Origin: Candidatus Gastranaerophilales bacterium
GTDB taxonomy: Bacteria; Cyanobacteriota; Vampirovibrionia; Gastranaerophilales; Gastranaerophilaceae
DNA: 64,000 nt
Reading direction: 5' to 3'
Assembly (NCBI GenBank): GCA_944323255.1
Contig: CALURU010000002.1
Location: 62,001-126,000, forward strand
Shown here: in pieces, positions 54,166 to 61,736 of the stretch
Layout: every line of letters starts with the position of its first letter
Numbering within the stretch: the stretch's first letter is position 1
Program-made: the position numbers and the translations under genes
Notes under the pieces: generated by a model
Seen by the model: the letters and a program-made list of their open reading frames with translations, nothing else
Databases searched by the model: none
Told to the model about the DNA's origin: nothing

Positions 54166-54170
54166 TTTTT

Positions 54171-54570
54171 TTAACCTTTGTGCGGGTGACATCCCGCTGA
54201 ACTACTAACCTGTTTTGTACCAACCGGTCACCCTTTTGATCAAACTACTGACTTATTTGCACCTGTTAATTTAACCTTTGTACGGGTGACATCCCGCTGC
54301 ACTACTAACCTCTTTTGTATCTACCGGTCTCCCTTTTGATCAAACTACTGACTTATTTGCACCTGTTAATTTAACCTTTGTACGGGTGACATCCCGCTGC
54401 ACTACTAACCTCTTTTGTATCTACCGGTCTCCCTTTTGATCAAACTACTGACTTATTTGCACCTGTTAATTTAACCTTTGTACGGGTGACATCCCGCTGT
54501 ACTACTAACCTGTTTTGTACCTGCCGGTCACCCTTTTGATCAAACTACTGACATACTTGTACAGGTTCTT
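54171..54570. repeat. Four tandem 100-bp repeats between the c and b' subunit genes
   Basis: Units at 54171-54270, 54271-54370, 54371-54470 and 54471-54570. Units 2 and 3 are identical; 1 and 4 differ at several positions. Each carries GGGTGACATCCCG, an inner CGGG/CCCG hairpin, and a TTTGATCAAA palindrome. GGGTGAC can pair with GTCACCC in units 1 and 4. On the mRNA strand each unit ends CAAAGGTTAA, the SD context of the b' gene. A degenerate fifth hairpin (GGGAG/CTCCC) follows at 54580-54620. Confidence 0.95.
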
Positions 54571-54631: not shown

Positions 54632-54712
54632 AGATTTACCCCTGAAAATTTACCCCGAGGATTTACCCCTGAAAATTTACCCCGAGGATTTACCCCTGAG
54701 GATTTACCCCCT
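54632..54712. repeat. Short tandem array of GGGGTAAAT (minus strand)
   Basis: Six copies of ATTTACCCC (plus strand) at 13-14 base spacing, alternating TGAAA and GAG linkers in a 27-bp higher-order unit. It reaches the stop region of the c subunit gene. On the transcribed strand this is a series of G4 runs with 9- to 10-base loops. Confidence 0.88.
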
Positions 54713-55865: not shown

Positions 55866-56075
55866 TTAATCCAATCTTATTTCTGCATTTTCACAATTGA
55901 TAATTTGTGTTTCTGTTTCGTAGTATTCATCTTTTAATTCTGTTTTGGAAATTTTTACCTCGGTAAGTTTTTGCAACAGCTTGATATAATCAAGGCATTC
56001 CTTGCCTTTTACTCCTACTGTTTCCATTTCTATTTCACCGTTTGGACGCAGTCTTATTTTTAACTTTTTTGTCAT
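55866..56075 (-). CDS. DUF2997 family protein
   Basis: 69-aa protein of the DUF2997 family: RLRPNGEIEMETVGVKGKEC, then DEYYETETQI. In cyanobacteria such genes sit beside ycf35. Function unknown. The start is 3 bases after the stop of the DUF1257-like gene, so the two are coupled. Last gene of the radical SAM/AAA+ set. Confidence 0.85.
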   Translation of the reverse strand: MTKKLKIRLRPNGEIEMETVGVKGKECLDYIKLLQKLTEVKISKTELKDEYYETETQIINCENAEIRLD

Positions 56076-56078
56076 TTT

Positions 56079-56603
56079 TTACTCCAAATTAATTGTTAAC
56101 ACGATCGTATTATCATCGCAAACTTCTTCATTTTCTATTTGCAAGTTATTTTCTTTGAGTCTTGCTACTATGTTATTATAACTTTCTTCCTGAACATTTA
56201 CCGAATATTCATTATTTAATGCATTTAAAGTTGGTCCAATATCGTCTGAATCAAGGGCTTTAATTATAACATAATAAGGTTTATTAGCATTTGTGCGTTC
56301 AAAATTTAATTCGTAATGACCGGAATAGCATTTAATTTGTCCGTACTCATTTTCACTAAGCCCTCTTACTCCATGCTCGGTTAAAGTTTTTATCAATAAA
56401 TATTTATCCATAAATGGTGTTTCAAGGGTTTTTTCTATGAAATGCTTTTCAGATATTATCTGAATATTATCGCAAGCAATTTCCGGTTTTTCTTTAATTT
56501 CATTCTCTACAGACATCTCGTTTGCAGCAGCAATACCAACCTTTACAATATTCCCTGCTACCCATGCCAGTGCAATTGGAAGTGCTAGTACTGTACAAGA
56601 CAT
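56079..56603 (-). CDS. Ycf35-like (DUF1257) protein with N-terminal hydrophobic segment
   Basis: 174-aa protein. The C-terminal 100 residues match the pattern of DUF1257/Ycf35 (LIKTLTEHGVRGL, YSGHYELNFER, SYNNIVARLKENNLQIENEE). Unlike the usual 120-residue Ycf35, it has an extra N-terminal part with a possible membrane helix (CTVLALPIALAWVAGNIVKV). Position beside DUF2997 and a Ycf46-like AAA+ protein supports the call. Ycf35 function is not established. Confidence 0.68.
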   Translation of the reverse strand: MSCTVLALPIALAWVAGNIVKVGIAAANEMSVENEIKEKPEIACDNIQIISEKHFIEKTLETPFMDKYLLIKTLTEHGVRGLSENEYGQIKCYSGHYELNFERTNANKPYYVIIKALDSDDIGPTLNALNNEYSVNVQEESYNNIVARLKENNLQIENEEVCDDNTIVLTINLE

Positions 56604-56618
56604 AATTTTTTCTCCTTA

Positions 56619-58232
56619 TTAAAAATCTAACGTTCTTCCGCCTCTTGAAGCAGCAATATTTTCTTCGTTATCTTCACGTTTATAGTGCTTCATATCAGAA
56701 ATTTTTGTTGCTGAAACCGCTCTAACATTTGCCCATGCTCTAAGAGCAAGAATTTGTTCTCTCTGCGTCATTGAAAGCGGAACCGTATTTGCGATATTTT
56801 TTTCAAGATCTTCAAATCTTAACGGTCTGTTTTCAAAAAACGCATCACAAAGAGATGATACAACAACCTGTTCTATTTCTGACCCGATAAAACCTTCTGT
56901 CATTTTAGCAAGCAAGGTGCAAATATTCTTTACTCCGGCAATTTCACTTGCGACTTCTTTGTCCTTGAGGCGTTTTTCCAGATGCAGTTTGAAAATTTCT
57001 TTTCTTTCAGCAAGTGTTGGAAGATCTACAAAAAATATTTCATCAAAACGTCCTTTTCTCAAAAGTTCAGGCGGAAGATTATTTATATTATTTGCTGTAG
57101 CGATAACAAAAACAGGTGCTTCTTTTTCCTGCATCCACGTTAAAAACTGACCGAATATTCTTGAAGAAACTCCGCTGTCACCATTAGATCCGACTCCGCT
57201 TAAACCTTTTTCGATTTCATCTATCCAGAGAATTGAAGGAGCAACAGCTTCAGCTGTCGCAAGTGCTCTTCGCATATTTTCTTCCGAGCTTCCGACAAGA
57301 CCGGAGAAAACTTTTCCGAAGTCCAGTTTCAAAAGCGGAAGCTGCCAGATTTTACTCATTGCTTTTGCTGTTAAACTCTTACCGCAGCCCGGAACTCCGG
57401 TTACTAAAACACCTTTTGGTGCCGGAATGCAATATTTCTTTGCACTCTCCGACCAGGAATTATTTCTCTTTAAAAGCCAGTTTTTTAAATTATCCAAACC
57501 GCCTATATCTTTAAGAGAATAATCTGATTGGATAAATTCCAGAATACCGGATTTTTTTATTACCTGAACTTTTTCTTGCAAAATAACCGGCAAATCCTTT
57601 ATATCAATTTTACCGTCATTAACCATAGCAAGAGCAAATGCACTTTCTGCTTCCTGTAAAGTAAGTCCTAAAGCTCCCTTGCACAATTTATCTTTGTCTT
57701 CGTCAGACAGATTGGCTTCTATTCCGGAATTCTGTTTTAACATGTTATCAAACTTCGCCCTTATTTCTTTCAAGTTAGGGAGCGGAAAATCAAAAATTGT
57801 AATCTCTTTTTGCAGAGCTTCCGGTATAAGAAGTTCTGGTGAAATAAAAAATATAGTTTTTCTAAAAGTTCCAAGTTTTAAATCAGGAATAATATCTCTG
57901 ATTTTCCTTATTACATTATAGTCAGGAGCTCTGTTTTTAGGTCCGAAATTTACGTAAAAATCATATAAAATAAATACTGCATCTTTGTCGTATCTTCTAA
58001 TATATTCTAACATTTTACAAGGACAGGTTGTGTCAGCAATGGTTTTATTTGTTGTGTCATTGTGAAGTCCGTTTGTCTGAGTCCAGCTGAAAACCTCTCT
58101 CTCATATTTTACTTGCTTTACATCAGTTACAACAGACTTAATGTACTTTGTGACTCTGTCTTCTTCAAAAGTTGAAATATAAATAAGAGGAAATCTTGCT
58201 CTTATTAAGTTTGATAATTTGTATGCACACAT
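56619..58232 (-). CDS. Ycf46-like AAA+ ATPase
   Basis: 537-aa AAA+ protein. The N-terminal 230 residues match the Ycf46 pattern (RARFPLIYISTFEEDRV, then AVFILYDFY). The AAA core has Walker A GVPGCGKS (279-286), Walker B SILWIDEIE (333-341), sensor-1 ATANNINNLP and Arg finger RKGRFDEIFFVDLP. It is a likely remodelling motor, perhaps for the adjacent radical SAM protein or a membrane target; this is inferred from linkage only. 15-base gap to the DUF1257-like gene. Confidence 0.9.
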   Translation of the reverse strand: MCAYKLSNLIRARFPLIYISTFEEDRVTKYIKSVVTDVKQVKYEREVFSWTQTNGLHNDTTNKTIADTTCPCKMLEYIRRYDKDAVFILYDFYVNFGPKNRAPDYNVIRKIRDIIPDLKLGTFRKTIFFISPELLIPEALQKEITIFDFPLPNLKEIRAKFDNMLKQNSGIEANLSDEDKDKLCKGALGLTLQEAESAFALAMVNDGKIDIKDLPVILQEKVQVIKKSGILEFIQSDYSLKDIGGLDNLKNWLLKRNNSWSESAKKYCIPAPKGVLVTGVPGCGKSLTAKAMSKIWQLPLLKLDFGKVFSGLVGSSEENMRRALATAEAVAPSILWIDEIEKGLSGVGSNGDSGVSSRIFGQFLTWMQEKEAPVFVIATANNINNLPPELLRKGRFDEIFFVDLPTLAERKEIFKLHLEKRLKDKEVASEIAGVKNICTLLAKMTEGFIGSEIEQVVVSSLCDAFFENRPLRFEDLEKNIANTVPLSMTQREQILALRAWANVRAVSATKISDMKHYKREDNEENIAASRGGRTLDF

Positions 58233-58260
58233 AGAATAATCCTTTTTTTTATTATTTATA

Positions 58261-58854
58261 TCATTTATTAAGAGTTGCTAAATCAATCTTTTGCAGTATC
58301 TCATCAAAATTTCCCATTCCGTTCATAAAAATAACACCGTTTTTTGAGATATTTACTTCCACTTTATTTTTATATTTCTCAAAAATTTCTTCATTATACC
58401 TGTTTGTCAAAAAATGGTACCTTTGATTGGAAGAGCCGCACCAGGGACGGGAGTAATCAACAAGTTCAAGCTTAAATTCCCCATCGATTAATAGATCAAT
58501 ATTATCGAGAAGAAGCCGATTTTTCTCTTCTTGTCTAAGTTCTTCCAATAAAAATCCACTAAAACATAAAACGCTCAACCCAAGCTTTTGAACCTCTTTC
58601 GCAATGAACCCAAGAGCTTCTGCCTGCTCAAAGGGCTCGCCGCCCAAGAATGTCACACCCTCAATATTTTTTTGTGACTTAATATCCTCAATAATATCTT
58701 CTACATCAATTAAAATTCCACCGGTATGTGACCAGGTGTGGACTGCCTGACAGCCTTTGCAATGTCTCGAACACCCTTGAGTCCAAATACAATAACGAAC
58801 TCCGGGCCCCTCAACTTTTGTTGTCTTTAAAATATTAAATACCCTTAATTTCAA
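58261..58854 (-). CDS. Radical SAM activase-like protein (NrdG-like)
   Basis: 197-aa radical SAM enzyme of the short glycyl-radical-activase type. The 4Fe-4S motif CxxxCxxC is C28, C32, C35 in GCSRHCKGC; the SAM-binding GG pair is in FLGGEPFEQAEAL. It resembles the activase of anaerobic ribonucleotide reductase, but no nrdD lies nearby, and linkage to Ycf46/Ycf35-like genes points to another substrate. Start is a TTG at 58854 with a weak SD, 8 bases after a 43-aa gene. Confidence 0.9.
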   Translation of the reverse strand: MKLRVFNILKTTKVEGPGVRYCIWTQGCSRHCKGCQAVHTWSHTGGILIDVEDIIEDIKSQKNIEGVTFLGGEPFEQAEALGFIAKEVQKLGLSVLCFSGFLLEELRQEEKNRLLLDNIDLLIDGEFKLELVDYSRPWCGSSNQRYHFLTNRYNEEIFEKYKNKVEVNISKNGVIFMNGMGNFDEILQKIDLATLNK

Positions 58855-58862
58855 TACAAACC

Positions 58863-58994
58863 CTACTTTTTTAAACCCGAAAAGAAATTTTCTTTTATAA
58901 ACTTATACAAATAAAATAATGATGCAAAAATTATTATACTCCAGAATAAACAAATTGAAATATTATTATCCAAATACCTGAAAGGCGAAAACAT
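58863..58994 (-). CDS. Small membrane protein, 43 aa
   Basis: Frame of 43 codons between the 58-aa gene and the radical SAM gene. Product: short N-terminus, one membrane helix (about 13-30, ICLFWSIIIFASLFYLY), basic tail ending SGLKK. SD AGGA lies 7 bases before the ATG, inside the end of the preceding gene; the stop of that gene is one base away. Position and overlap argue strongly for a real gene. Confidence 0.68.
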   Translation of the reverse strand: MFSPFRYLDNNISICLFWSIIIFASLFYLYKFIKENFFSGLKK

Positions 58995-58995
58995 G

Positions 58996-59172
58996 TTATT
59001 TCCTCATAAAAAATCTTATAATTTTTCTAATTGCATACTCCTCCGGGCAAGAAGCATCAGTCACATCTTTATCTTCATCATTAAACCTTGAATTTATCCA
59101 GGAAAAAAACATCCACCACCCAAAAACTCCTACTATTATTGTTGCAATAAGCTCAAAAAAAGAAAAATCCAT
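58996..59172 (-). CDS. Small membrane protein, 58 aa
   Basis: 58 codons, with the ATG directly next to the stop of the HhH protein gene (no gap). One N-terminal membrane helix (about 5-25, ELIATIIVGVFGWWMFFSW), then a charged segment NDEDKD, CPEEYA and a basic C-terminus ending FFMRK. No family recognised. Together with the 43-aa gene it fills what looks like a 318-base gap. Confidence 0.7.
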   Translation of the reverse strand: MDFSFFELIATIIVGVFGWWMFFSWINSRFNDEDKDVTDASCPEEYAIRKIIRFFMRK

Positions 59173-59934
59173 TTAAAAATCTATTCTCCTTTCTGTAGAA
59201 TGTTTTTCAGCTTCCTGTTCAGGTTTTTGTCCTGTATAAATAATTTTTCTTAACTGTTGCTGCATATGCGTTTGAATATTTAAGTCTGCAAAAAATTCTT
59301 CCACACTATTAAATCCGCCAACTTCATTACGCCTTTTTATCGCCTTTTTCGCCATTATAATGCTAACACCGGGAAGGGCTGTTAAATCTTCCTCTGTACA
59401 GTTATTAACATCTACACGATTCAGGTGAGCAGCAGGTGCAGTTGGTATTCTTTCTTCTACAGGTTTTTCAAATAATTTTTCTTCTATAATCAAGCTAAAA
59501 CGCCTGCAATCCTCAAGAAGACCATCATATGATTTATTATAATTAAAGGCTTTGCAAAACATATTCCAAACTTCTTCCCAATCGTGAACATTGGATTTTA
59601 AAACTTTAAAACATCTAAAAGCTCCGCCTTTTGTTTTTTCAAACCCCTCTATAGTCATTCCGTCCATACCAAGGGTTAAATAGCAATAAGAATTAGAAAG
59701 TTTTAAATCACGCCAAATGTCTTTATAAGGAGCAAGAAAAACTTTTGCCTTCTTTAGTGCAGTTTCTCTCCTGGAAGTTCGTCCATTCTCGACAGTTTTA
59801 TGCGGAAGATAAAACTTGAAAAACAAAAATGCCGCAAATAGCATAAGCATTGTTATTGCGGTTGGAATAGGGGCTATGCTTAAAAGCATAAAGCAGCATG
59901 CAAATAATAAACCTATTATACGATATTGAATCAA
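59173..59934 (-). CDS. Membrane protein with ComEA-like helix-hairpin-helix domain
   Basis: 253-aa protein: two N-terminal membrane helices (about 5-42), a middle domain of unknown type (WRDLKLSNSYCYLTLGMDGM), and a C-terminal HhH domain (about 175-230). That domain has VDVNNCTEEDLTALPGVSI and KRRNEVGGFNSVEEFF, close to the ComEA DNA-binding hairpin. It is probably membrane-anchored with the HhH part on the cytoplasmic or outer face. A link to DNA uptake is possible given comM at 17671, but the operon context points elsewhere. Confidence 0.78.
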   Translation of the reverse strand: MIQYRIIGLLFACCFMLLSIAPIPTAITMLMLFAAFLFFKFYLPHKTVENGRTSRRETALKKAKVFLAPYKDIWRDLKLSNSYCYLTLGMDGMTIEGFEKTKGGAFRCFKVLKSNVHDWEEVWNMFCKAFNYNKSYDGLLEDCRRFSLIIEEKLFEKPVEERIPTAPAAHLNRVDVNNCTEEDLTALPGVSIIMAKKAIKRRNEVGGFNSVEEFFADLNIQTHMQQQLRKIIYTGQKPEQEAEKHSTERRIDF

Positions 59935-59947
59935 TACAGACTCTCCT

Positions 59948-61075
59948 TTAACATATTGTAAATACTTTTCTGTAGTACAAACCGGCTCCTGCTATAGATA
60001 ATATTATATCCGGCATGAAAGCTGCTAGTACAGGAGGTAAAGAACCTGCTTCTCCAAAAGAAATAGAGAGAGCCCTTACAAGATAATACGCAAAGATTAT
60101 TAAAATGCTAAACAGGAAACCTCTGTTATATCTTACTCTCGGCGGAGTAATCGCAAGTGGTACACCTATTAAAACCAGTACAACCGTTGTTATAGGTAAT
60201 GCAATTTTATCAAATAAGCTGATTTCCAATTCCTGTCTATCTTCTATATCAGGTTTTGAAAGTACTTTACACAACTGTATAAAGTTATGCTGGTTTGCAA
60301 GATTTTTATCTAATTCTTTTGATAAATCCATGCCAAATTTTACATCTGTATTTTCAAAGAGAGTTGTGTCGAGAGTTTTACCACTGTCGGTTACCGTATA
60401 AATTGCGCCCTTTTGAAAGCTCCAGCCCCCGGGAGTTGTAGCACCTTCTCTTGCTTGAAGAATTTGAATAGTTCCATCTTTGGAAGCATCTAAAACGGTT
60501 ATATTGTGTAAAACTCCGTCTGTAGAATCTCCGACATAAAACAGTCTTTTTAAAAGACCATTTTCTTTGGTTTCTTTAAATGTAAAGTTTTGCTTTCCTT
60601 CTGGTACATTTTTCTGGCTGAAAGCAACTCCGGCAAGTTTTGTAGACAGTCTAGTAGAAAAAGGAACAACCGTTTCATTGATAACAAAGCTTACGCAGGA
60701 CATAACAATCGCAAAAATAAAAATAGGTTTTGCAATACGGTTAAGCCCGATGCCGCAGGCACGCATTACCGTGATTTCAGAATTCAAACTCAAGCCGTTA
60801 AGCGTCATAACCGTTGCAAGCAATACACCCATCGGAATTGTCATTACAAAAACCTCCGGCAAGTGAAGAATAATCATCAATATTGCATACTTAAACGGGA
60901 TTCCGTACATTGAAATCTGTTTGATTAAAGTGATAAAAGTATCTGACGCAAATATGATAGAAGTAAATACAAGCACACCCATTAAAAACATCTCAATTAC
61001 CTGCTTGAGGATGTATTTATCCAGATGTGTCATATTTTGTAATTTATAAATTAGATTCTTAATTAACTTTTTCAT
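59948..61075 (-). CDS. LptF/LptG family permease
   Basis: 375-aa permease of the YjgP/YjgQ family, which forms the membrane part of the lipopolysaccharide export complex with LptB. N-terminal LDKYILKQVIEMFLMGVLVF and MTIPMGVLLATVMTLNGLS, then a periplasmic beta-jellyroll, then C-terminal helices. Family proteins in cyanobacteria occur as a single LptF/G. The start could be the ATG at 61075, preceded by TATAAT about 20 bases upstream, or an inner one 14 codons later. First gene of the operon that runs to 55866. Confidence 0.88.
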   Translation of the reverse strand: MKKLIKNLIYKLQNMTHLDKYILKQVIEMFLMGVLVFTSIIFASDTFITLIKQISMYGIPFKYAILMIILHLPEVFVMTIPMGVLLATVMTLNGLSLNSEITVMRACGIGLNRIAKPIFIFAIVMSCVSFVINETVVPFSTRLSTKLAGVAFSQKNVPEGKQNFTFKETKENGLLKRLFYVGDSTDGVLHNITVLDASKDGTIQILQAREGATTPGGWSFQKGAIYTVTDSGKTLDTTLFENTDVKFGMDLSKELDKNLANQHNFIQLCKVLSKPDIEDRQELEISLFDKIALPITTVVLVLIGVPLAITPPRVRYNRGFLFSILIIFAYYLVRALSISFGEAGSLPPVLAAFMPDIILSIAGAGLYYRKVFTIC

Positions 61076-61119: not shown

Positions 61120-61245
61120 GGGGGGGGTAAATGTATTGAGTTGATAAGTGGAGCTACAAGTTTAGCGTTCTTGTATGCGGGGTAAATGTATTGAGTTGGT
61201 AAGTGGAGCTACAAGTTTAGCATCTTTAGTGCGGGGGCATTAAAA
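61120..61245 (+). repeat. Two copies of the G-run repeat family
   Basis: GGGGGGGGTAAATGTATTGAG followed by TTGATAAGTGGAGCTACAAG, then a second unit about 60 bases later. Related to the 55-bp array at 8278-8515. Confidence 0.75.
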
Positions 61246-61532: not shown

Positions 61533-61736
61533 TTAACTTTCCCAGCGGATATTCCGTTTTATTACCTTTGCAGGAGTCCCTGCTATAATGGTATTTTGCT
61601 CTTCAAATTTATGTGTTACAAATGAATTTGCTCCAACGACACAGCCATCAGGAATAACAGCCCCTTTGTGTACAGAAGCATTTCTTCCTATCCAGACATG
61701 CTTGCCAAGTTTTAGAATACATAAAAATTTCTATAA
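61533..61736 (-). pseudogene. Remnant of a hexapeptide-repeat acetyltransferase
   Basis: On the minus strand an open frame without a start codon encodes about 65 residues with left-handed beta-helix repeats: GKHVWIGRNASVHKGAVIPD, then GCVVGANSFVT, then IIAGTPAKVIKRN, the usual C-terminal end of LbH acetyltransferases. The 5' part is missing; the frame hits a stop just where a palindromic repeat (61730-61785) begins. It is a decayed gene cut by rearrangement or repeat insertion. Confidence 0.75.

Follow-up and report, generated by a model that had tools for sequence, protein, structure and literature searches.

The window analysed here is a stretch of 64,000 nucleotides from Candidatus Gastranaerophilales bacterium (contig CALURU010000002.1, positions 62,001 to 126,000), and at 55866–61075 it carries eight minus-strand open reading frames (ORFs), all confirmed where an earlier reading of the letters alone (the original prediction) had set them, and packed with gaps of 13, 0, 1, 8, 28, 15 and 3 bases in transcription order. 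Five of the eight genes form a conserved unit, which encodes a Ycf46-like AAA+ ATPase, a divergent DUF1257 protein (referred to as W), a DUF2997 protein, a radical S-adenosylmethionine (SAM) enzyme and a helix-hairpin-helix (HhH) membrane protein. The ATPase and the HhH protein are unrelated in sequence and end in the same C-terminal tail; the original prediction overlooked both this tail and the place of the HhH protein as the fifth core gene. The DUF1257/Ycf35, DUF2997 and Ycf46 families are common among cyanobacteria, with Ycf35 and Ycf46 also present in many algal plastids, and to our knowledge none of the three has a settled function.

The AAA+ ATPase (537 residues, 56619–58232, minus strand as for all genes of the run; AAA family match E 4e-29) consists of an N-terminal domain of ~230 residues, for which no Pfam match was found above cut-off, followed by one AAA domain with the Walker motifs GVPGCGKS and ILWIDEIEK. 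It aligns over its full length with its homologues, being 49% identical to those of Actinobacterial plasmids, and is termed Ycf46-like on its architecture and this alignment. W (174 residues, 56079–56603) has no Pfam DUF1257 match in a direct scan, but profile–profile comparison of its family with Ycf35/DUF1257 gives an hhalign probability of 97% (E 3e-11), and the label DUF1257-like, already used in the original prediction, is therefore apt. A hydrophobic N-terminal segment (56544–56594 in the window) is present in 62 of 72 cassette DUF1257-like proteins and in 2 of 53 canonical Ycf35 proteins (p 2.6e-22, overstated owing to kinship among the sequences); since this extension is absent from canonical Ycf35, W represents a divergent, probably membrane-anchored DUF1257 subfamily. 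The AlphaFold2 (AF2) model of W contains a confident α/β domain at residues 55–174. The DUF2997 protein (69 residues, 55866–56075) matches PF11211 with E 3.3e-11 (43.3 bits against a cut-off of 24.1) and contains a GxxGxxC motif at 55995–56015, in which Cys27 and the glycines are invariant in an alignment of 51 homologues. Apparent fusions of W with DUF2997 at two loci (L099 and L104) look like frame read-through of high-GC ORFs rather than real fusions, and so provide no evidence for a complex of the two.

The HhH membrane protein (253 residues, TTG start, 59173–59934; HHH_3 E 3.8e-11) is laid out as N-terminal hydrophobic segments, a middle domain, a ComEA-like HhH domain and the C-terminal tail. 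Against the curated comEA model it scores 26.3 bits, below the cut-off of 152, and the match is limited to the HhH segment. The radical SAM enzyme (197 residues, TTG start, 58261–58854) carries the CxxxCxxC cluster-binding motif as CSRHCKGC, read from the translation at 58750–58773. Family scans matched the names that the original prediction had given to the LptF-like, HhH, radical SAM, AAA+ and DUF2997 products.

The order AAA+–W–DUF2997 is kept at nearly all of the 26 loci that have DUF2997 in the gene order of the window, with the radical SAM and HhH genes preceding it at most of them, and the gene set turns up again in at least six further phyla, which argues against a chance arrangement. 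Linkage outside this genome, on which the original prediction of a conserved multi-gene system hung, was thus found in many phyla. The presence of DUF2997 and that of a tailed HhH protein are concordant in 20 of 22 congener genomes; in two genomes (G009 and G012) the HhH–radical SAM pair is located on a different contig from AAA+–W–DUF2997, yet both are present, which argues for a functional and not merely positional tie. The cassette occurs in at least seven phyla, the Gastranaerophilales being joined by Actinomycetota, Bacillota, Bacteroidota, Planctomycetota, Armatimonadota and Fusobacteriota, and the gene order outside the window's group is varied, as seen at genome-scan loci in those six other phyla, at some of which DUF2997 or W escaped the profiles used. 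Actinobacterial plasmids carry the order AAA+–W–DUF2997–HhH or membrane protein–radical SAM, with ATPases 48–49% identical to that of the window, and partial or divergent versions are present on Paenibacillus and Bacillus plasmids, on IncC plasmids and in phages.

The remaining three genes of the run lie outside this unit. The first gene encodes an LptF/LptG-like permease (59948–61075; PF03739 E 4e-68), which passes the PF03739 superfamily cut-off and falls below those of the curated LptF and LptG equivalogs (182.6 against 240 and 168.1 against 230 bits respectively). Together with atpB, it is a frequent local neighbour at the same-order loci, and in the window an atpB-like gene was identified by eye downstream of the run. 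The permease gene was not seen adjoining cassettes of other phyla, is missing from Gram-positive cassettes and was rejected as a part of the system, being a syntenic neighbour only. Two single-helix proteins of 58 residues (58996–59172) and 43 residues (58863–58994) recur at only 4 and 3 of the 26 loci respectively and were likewise rejected as core parts, leaving them as lineage-specific passengers. Substitutions by codon position number 12/8/29 for the 58-residue ORF and 8/1/8 for the 43-residue ORF; the third-position excess of the former suggests that it is coding, with the latter less clear. Of the membership in the original prediction, then, the four named families recur together across genomes and the permease and the two small proteins drop out. 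Promoter and terminator scans gave no signal above chance level.

The ATPase of the window ends in RGGRTLDF (56622–56645) and the HhH protein in STERRIDF, its last five residues RRIDF (R-x-Φ-D-Φ) being encoded at 59176–59190. The tail class was defined as R-x-[ILVMF]-[DE]-[FLIMVWY], with up to two extra residues allowed after it. Among cassettes with a radical SAM gene it terminates 59 of 76 ATPases and 67 of 69 HhH proteins, compared with none of the 208 radical SAM, W and DUF2997 proteins and 12 of 1114 background ORFs. The pattern was picked after viewing the Gastranaerophilales and plasmid loci, so the count on new loci outside the window's order is the cleaner figure; there the tail, as R-x-[ILV]-[DE]-[FLIVYW], is present on 24 of 26 ATPases, 26 of 27 HhH proteins and 3 of 191 other ORFs. 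These sequences are related and not independent, so that p-values overstate. Within the tail the R and D are nearly fixed, with D at position −2 in 99% of the tailed HhH proteins and 89% of the tailed ATPases (the remainder have E), and the linker preceding it is variable. The window's own genome was searched with two DNA patterns covering tails that end in D-F or D-L, and just two ORFs of substantial length, those of the ATPase and the HhH protein, were found to end in R-x-[FILMV]-D-[FL]-stop; elsewhere the pattern fell in open stretches no longer than 59 codons, a number of them lacking a start codon. HHH_3 proteins outside the cassette (Tex-like, ~700 residues) have no tail.

The gene for the HhH or other tailed protein adjoins the radical SAM gene in 55 of 66 loci, and a tailed partner is present at 58 of 76 loci with a radical SAM gene and at 2 of 37 without one. 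The bodies of these partners vary whilst the tail stays: they contain transmembrane segments, TPR domains (L135 and L021) or GYF_2 domains (L103 and L107), one has six HHH_3 repeats (L144), and at L135 an Mrr-type nuclease domain is part of a tailed membrane protein. At one locus (L132), seven ORFs labelled HhH lie near radical SAM–AAA+–W–DUF2997 and all are tailed, which suggests client diversification. A transmembrane segment is predicted in 77 of 87 tailed partners, and these segments, along with the hydrophobic N-terminus of W, make probable the membrane location that the original prediction had raised as a possibility. As a separate observation, a congener carries a second, divergent cassette (L021, G011 C3), in which the two TPR proteins have the tails SGRTIDF and GKRKLDI. 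Large IMG/VR contigs (L183–L187, L178, L179 and L197) encode AAA+, DUF2997, radical SAM and small proteins in which another ending recurs: the gene before AAA+ closes with ..IRVGE and, in some, AAA+ itself with ..RRRIMN. These viral endings are possibly a divergent tail code.

The radical SAM enzyme of the window has Fer4_12/radical SAM as its family (E 3e-34) and scores 118.9 bits on the NrdG model (TIGR02491), below the cut-off of 126.1, with ~40 extra C-terminal residues. Other cassette enzymes of the genus score 107–123 bits, compared with 169–186 bits for true NrdG, which is present in every congener searched, whether or not a cassette is there. In a phylogenetic tree the cassette enzymes of six phyla form a clade (support 99/97) apart from the NrdG clade (98/93), whilst a few plasmid and viral enzymes are placed elsewhere on long branches. 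Identity with NrdG was rejected on these grounds. The description of the enzyme as activase-like, with NrdG/Fer4_12 as best family and no reductase partner, was borne out; a finding that would have told against the original prediction, an NrdD partner as the enzyme's target, has lost ground because NrdD and its own canonical NrdG are encoded elsewhere in the window's genome.

The chances seem to us about even that the products of the five genes work as a single protein-remodelling machine tethered to the membrane, to which clients dock via the shared tail and in which the radical SAM enzyme modifies them. In the mechanism that we infer for it, the AAA+ ATPase would serve as the motor, with the membrane-anchored DUF1257-like protein and DUF2997 as its constant adaptors, and the HhH-type membrane proteins would be clients or receptors. 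The tail (R-x-Φ-[DE]-Φ-COOH) would bring clients and motor alike to a shared docking hub, for which the DUF1257-like/DUF2997 pair is the likeliest candidate, since these two are constant companions of the ATPase and the AAA+ tail persists at 18 of 37 DUF1257/DUF2997 loci that have no radical SAM gene. The radical SAM enzyme would modify the tailed client, as the adjacency and co-occurrence of its gene with the HhH gene suggest, or else an adaptor, and the motor would then remodel, assemble or extract the modified client. A broader reading, possible but held more tentatively, is a pan-bacterial form of protein tagging, in which a genetically encoded C-terminal tail, common to the AAA+ motor and a varying set of membrane proteins, would direct clients both to that motor and to a radical SAM enzyme devoted to modifying them. 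Several observations weigh against the proposed machine. The AAA+ tail occurs at 27 of 85 loci with AAA+ only, as well as at the 18 radical SAM-less loci, which makes the DUF1257-like/DUF2997 pair a candidate rather than a proven tail reader, and the strict tail is missing at some radical SAM loci, mainly viral. Fold searches with W returned only generic α/β matches (adaptin appendage, KA1 and BamC, Z<8), with nothing convincing among viral structures; the structure model of DUF2997 is weak, and its fold search gave no useful match.

Other explanations account for parts of these data. The tail itself could be the radical SAM substrate, modified at its R, D or last residue in both the HhH and AAA+ proteins and then read by the system; radical SAM modification of a C-terminus has a precedent in mycofactocin, tailed partners track the radical SAM gene and the D at −2 is almost without exception in HhH tails, but the persistence of the AAA+ tail where that gene is absent, and a Paenibacillus polymyxa plasmid that has the gene and endings without D (RRISH, RVIHF and RVIRL), make this a distinctly unlikely account. 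Less probable still is that the enzyme is a glycyl-radical activase, acting on NrdD or, in the manner of GrcA, on the DUF1257-like or DUF2997 protein. Its best family match and the invariant glycines of DUF2997 would fit such a role, whereas the canonical NrdG found in each congener, the separate clade of the cassette enzymes and the failure to recognise any glycyl-radical enzyme in the cassette operons speak against it. Cassettes were also found in Gordonia, Arthrobacter, Microbacterium, Rhodococcus and Tenacibaculum, which are known as aerobic genera, and a glycyl radical, which would not last long there, is therefore unlikely.

A role in conflict with phages or plasmids, in which foreign DNA would be sensed or held by the HhH membrane proteins, with the ATPase triggering variable tailed effectors, the Mrr nuclease for example, has somewhat more in its favour and is rated as fairly unlikely: cassettes are found on plasmids and in phages, the tailed partners are variable and include that membrane nuclease, and the AAA core scores weakly against the defence ATPases IetA and TRIP13. 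The 84 proteins flanking chromosomal cassettes, however, are mostly housekeeping with scattered matches to defence models, the cassette in the window's genus is often at one syntenic site beside the atp genes, and PADLOC yielded nothing for the other parts apart from weak pVip matches of the radical SAM enzyme. A redox or iron-stress module for protein maturation, in which the ATPase would act under iron or oxidative stress with DUF2997, through its Cys27, and with a 4Fe-4S partner (Fed7 in cyanobacteria, here the radical SAM enzyme), we judge unlikely as well, though less so than modification of the tail. PMC4284462 describes a cyanobacterial cluster (cluster g) of DUF2997, ycf35/DUF1257 and fed7, in which low iron induces fed7. 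The ycf46 operon is responsive to iron as well as to oxidative stress (PMC7496141), and in red algal plastids the marine/freshwater retention of ycf35 and ycf46 goes along with that of the heme oxygenase gene pbsA (PMC5940233). The invariance of Cys27 is consistent with such a module, but likeness to the cyanobacterial parts is by family only, and the tail and the HhH proteins are left unexplained.

The machine proposed above, with its tail-docked clients, has partial counterparts among known systems. Cluster g shares with the cassette DUF1257 and DUF2997 next to a 4Fe-4S protein, in organisms that also have a Ycf46-type AAA+ protein (PMC4284462, PMC7496141), but as described it has no radical SAM enzyme and no HhH-tail protein, and canonical Ycf35 has no hydrophobic N-terminus. 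NrdG and the cassette enzyme are both small Fer4_12 radical SAM proteins with CxxxCxxC, separated by the score, clade and C-terminal differences given above. IetAS and SgiAT, which pair a SpoVK/Ycf46/Vps4-class AAA+ protein with a subtilisin-like protease, have a related C-terminal AAA domain and are also borne on plasmids or islands (PMC10954446), whereas the cassette has radical SAM, DUF1257-like, DUF2997 and tailed membrane partners in place of the subtilisin; the window's ATPase scores 57.9 bits on the IetA model (cut-off 510), and there is no protease among the eight genes. The p97/Cdc48 unfoldases are the best sequence relatives of solved structure for the AAA domain (E 1e-49), although only the second (AAA) half of the cassette ATPase aligns and the adaptors are unrelated. 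The backbone of IncC resistance plasmids, as on pGD31-NDM (L086, 4974–8312), has a block of AAA+, a 130-residue hypothetical protein, DUF2997 and a 377-residue membrane protein, with the related ends GRKLAIED and GKRKIILD; this relative has no adjoining radical SAM gene, its ends fall outside the strict tail and its ATPase is only 31% identical. Many Enterobacterales plasmid records contain matches to this AAA+ protein.

A literature search, with subscription papers and most preprints outside its reach, found no description of the cassette or the tail; the families are known, and their arrangement with radical SAM, AAA+ and tailed membrane proteins, like the shared tail, appears undescribed. 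The original prediction of an undescribed system that modifies or remodels a target, possibly at the membrane, stands in so far as the system appears undescribed, is conserved and is probably membrane-located, and fails for the small proteins and the permease as its parts. The cassette unites the Ycf35, DUF2997 and Ycf46 families with radical SAM and tailed membrane proteins across many phyla, and protein tagging of the kind outlined, if right, would represent a new logic of client recognition by AAA+ proteins and, among the modifications that radical SAM enzymes make to proteins, a new class that operates in aerobes as well. The shared tail offers a handle: from it one can predict which proteins are members, expect a binding site and design a mutation, and cassette bearers include cultivable, genetically tractable genera.

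On Treponema succinifaciens pTRESU01 (L080/L087) the radical SAM and AAA+ genes sit inside a contractile injection region, with VgrG/Pvc8-like genes on one side and baseplate V genes on the other, a context in which no other cassette was seen. Elsewhere in the window, a 100-bp unit is repeated in tandem 3.9 times, with copies 95% alike, at 54170–54559 near the ATP synthase genes, followed by a second short array at 54633–54710, and a 55-bp unit is repeated about twice at 61124–61236, just upstream of the LptF-like gene. Judged by eye, the minus strand at ~61535–61730 resembles the end of a broken hexapeptide-repeat acyltransferase gene.

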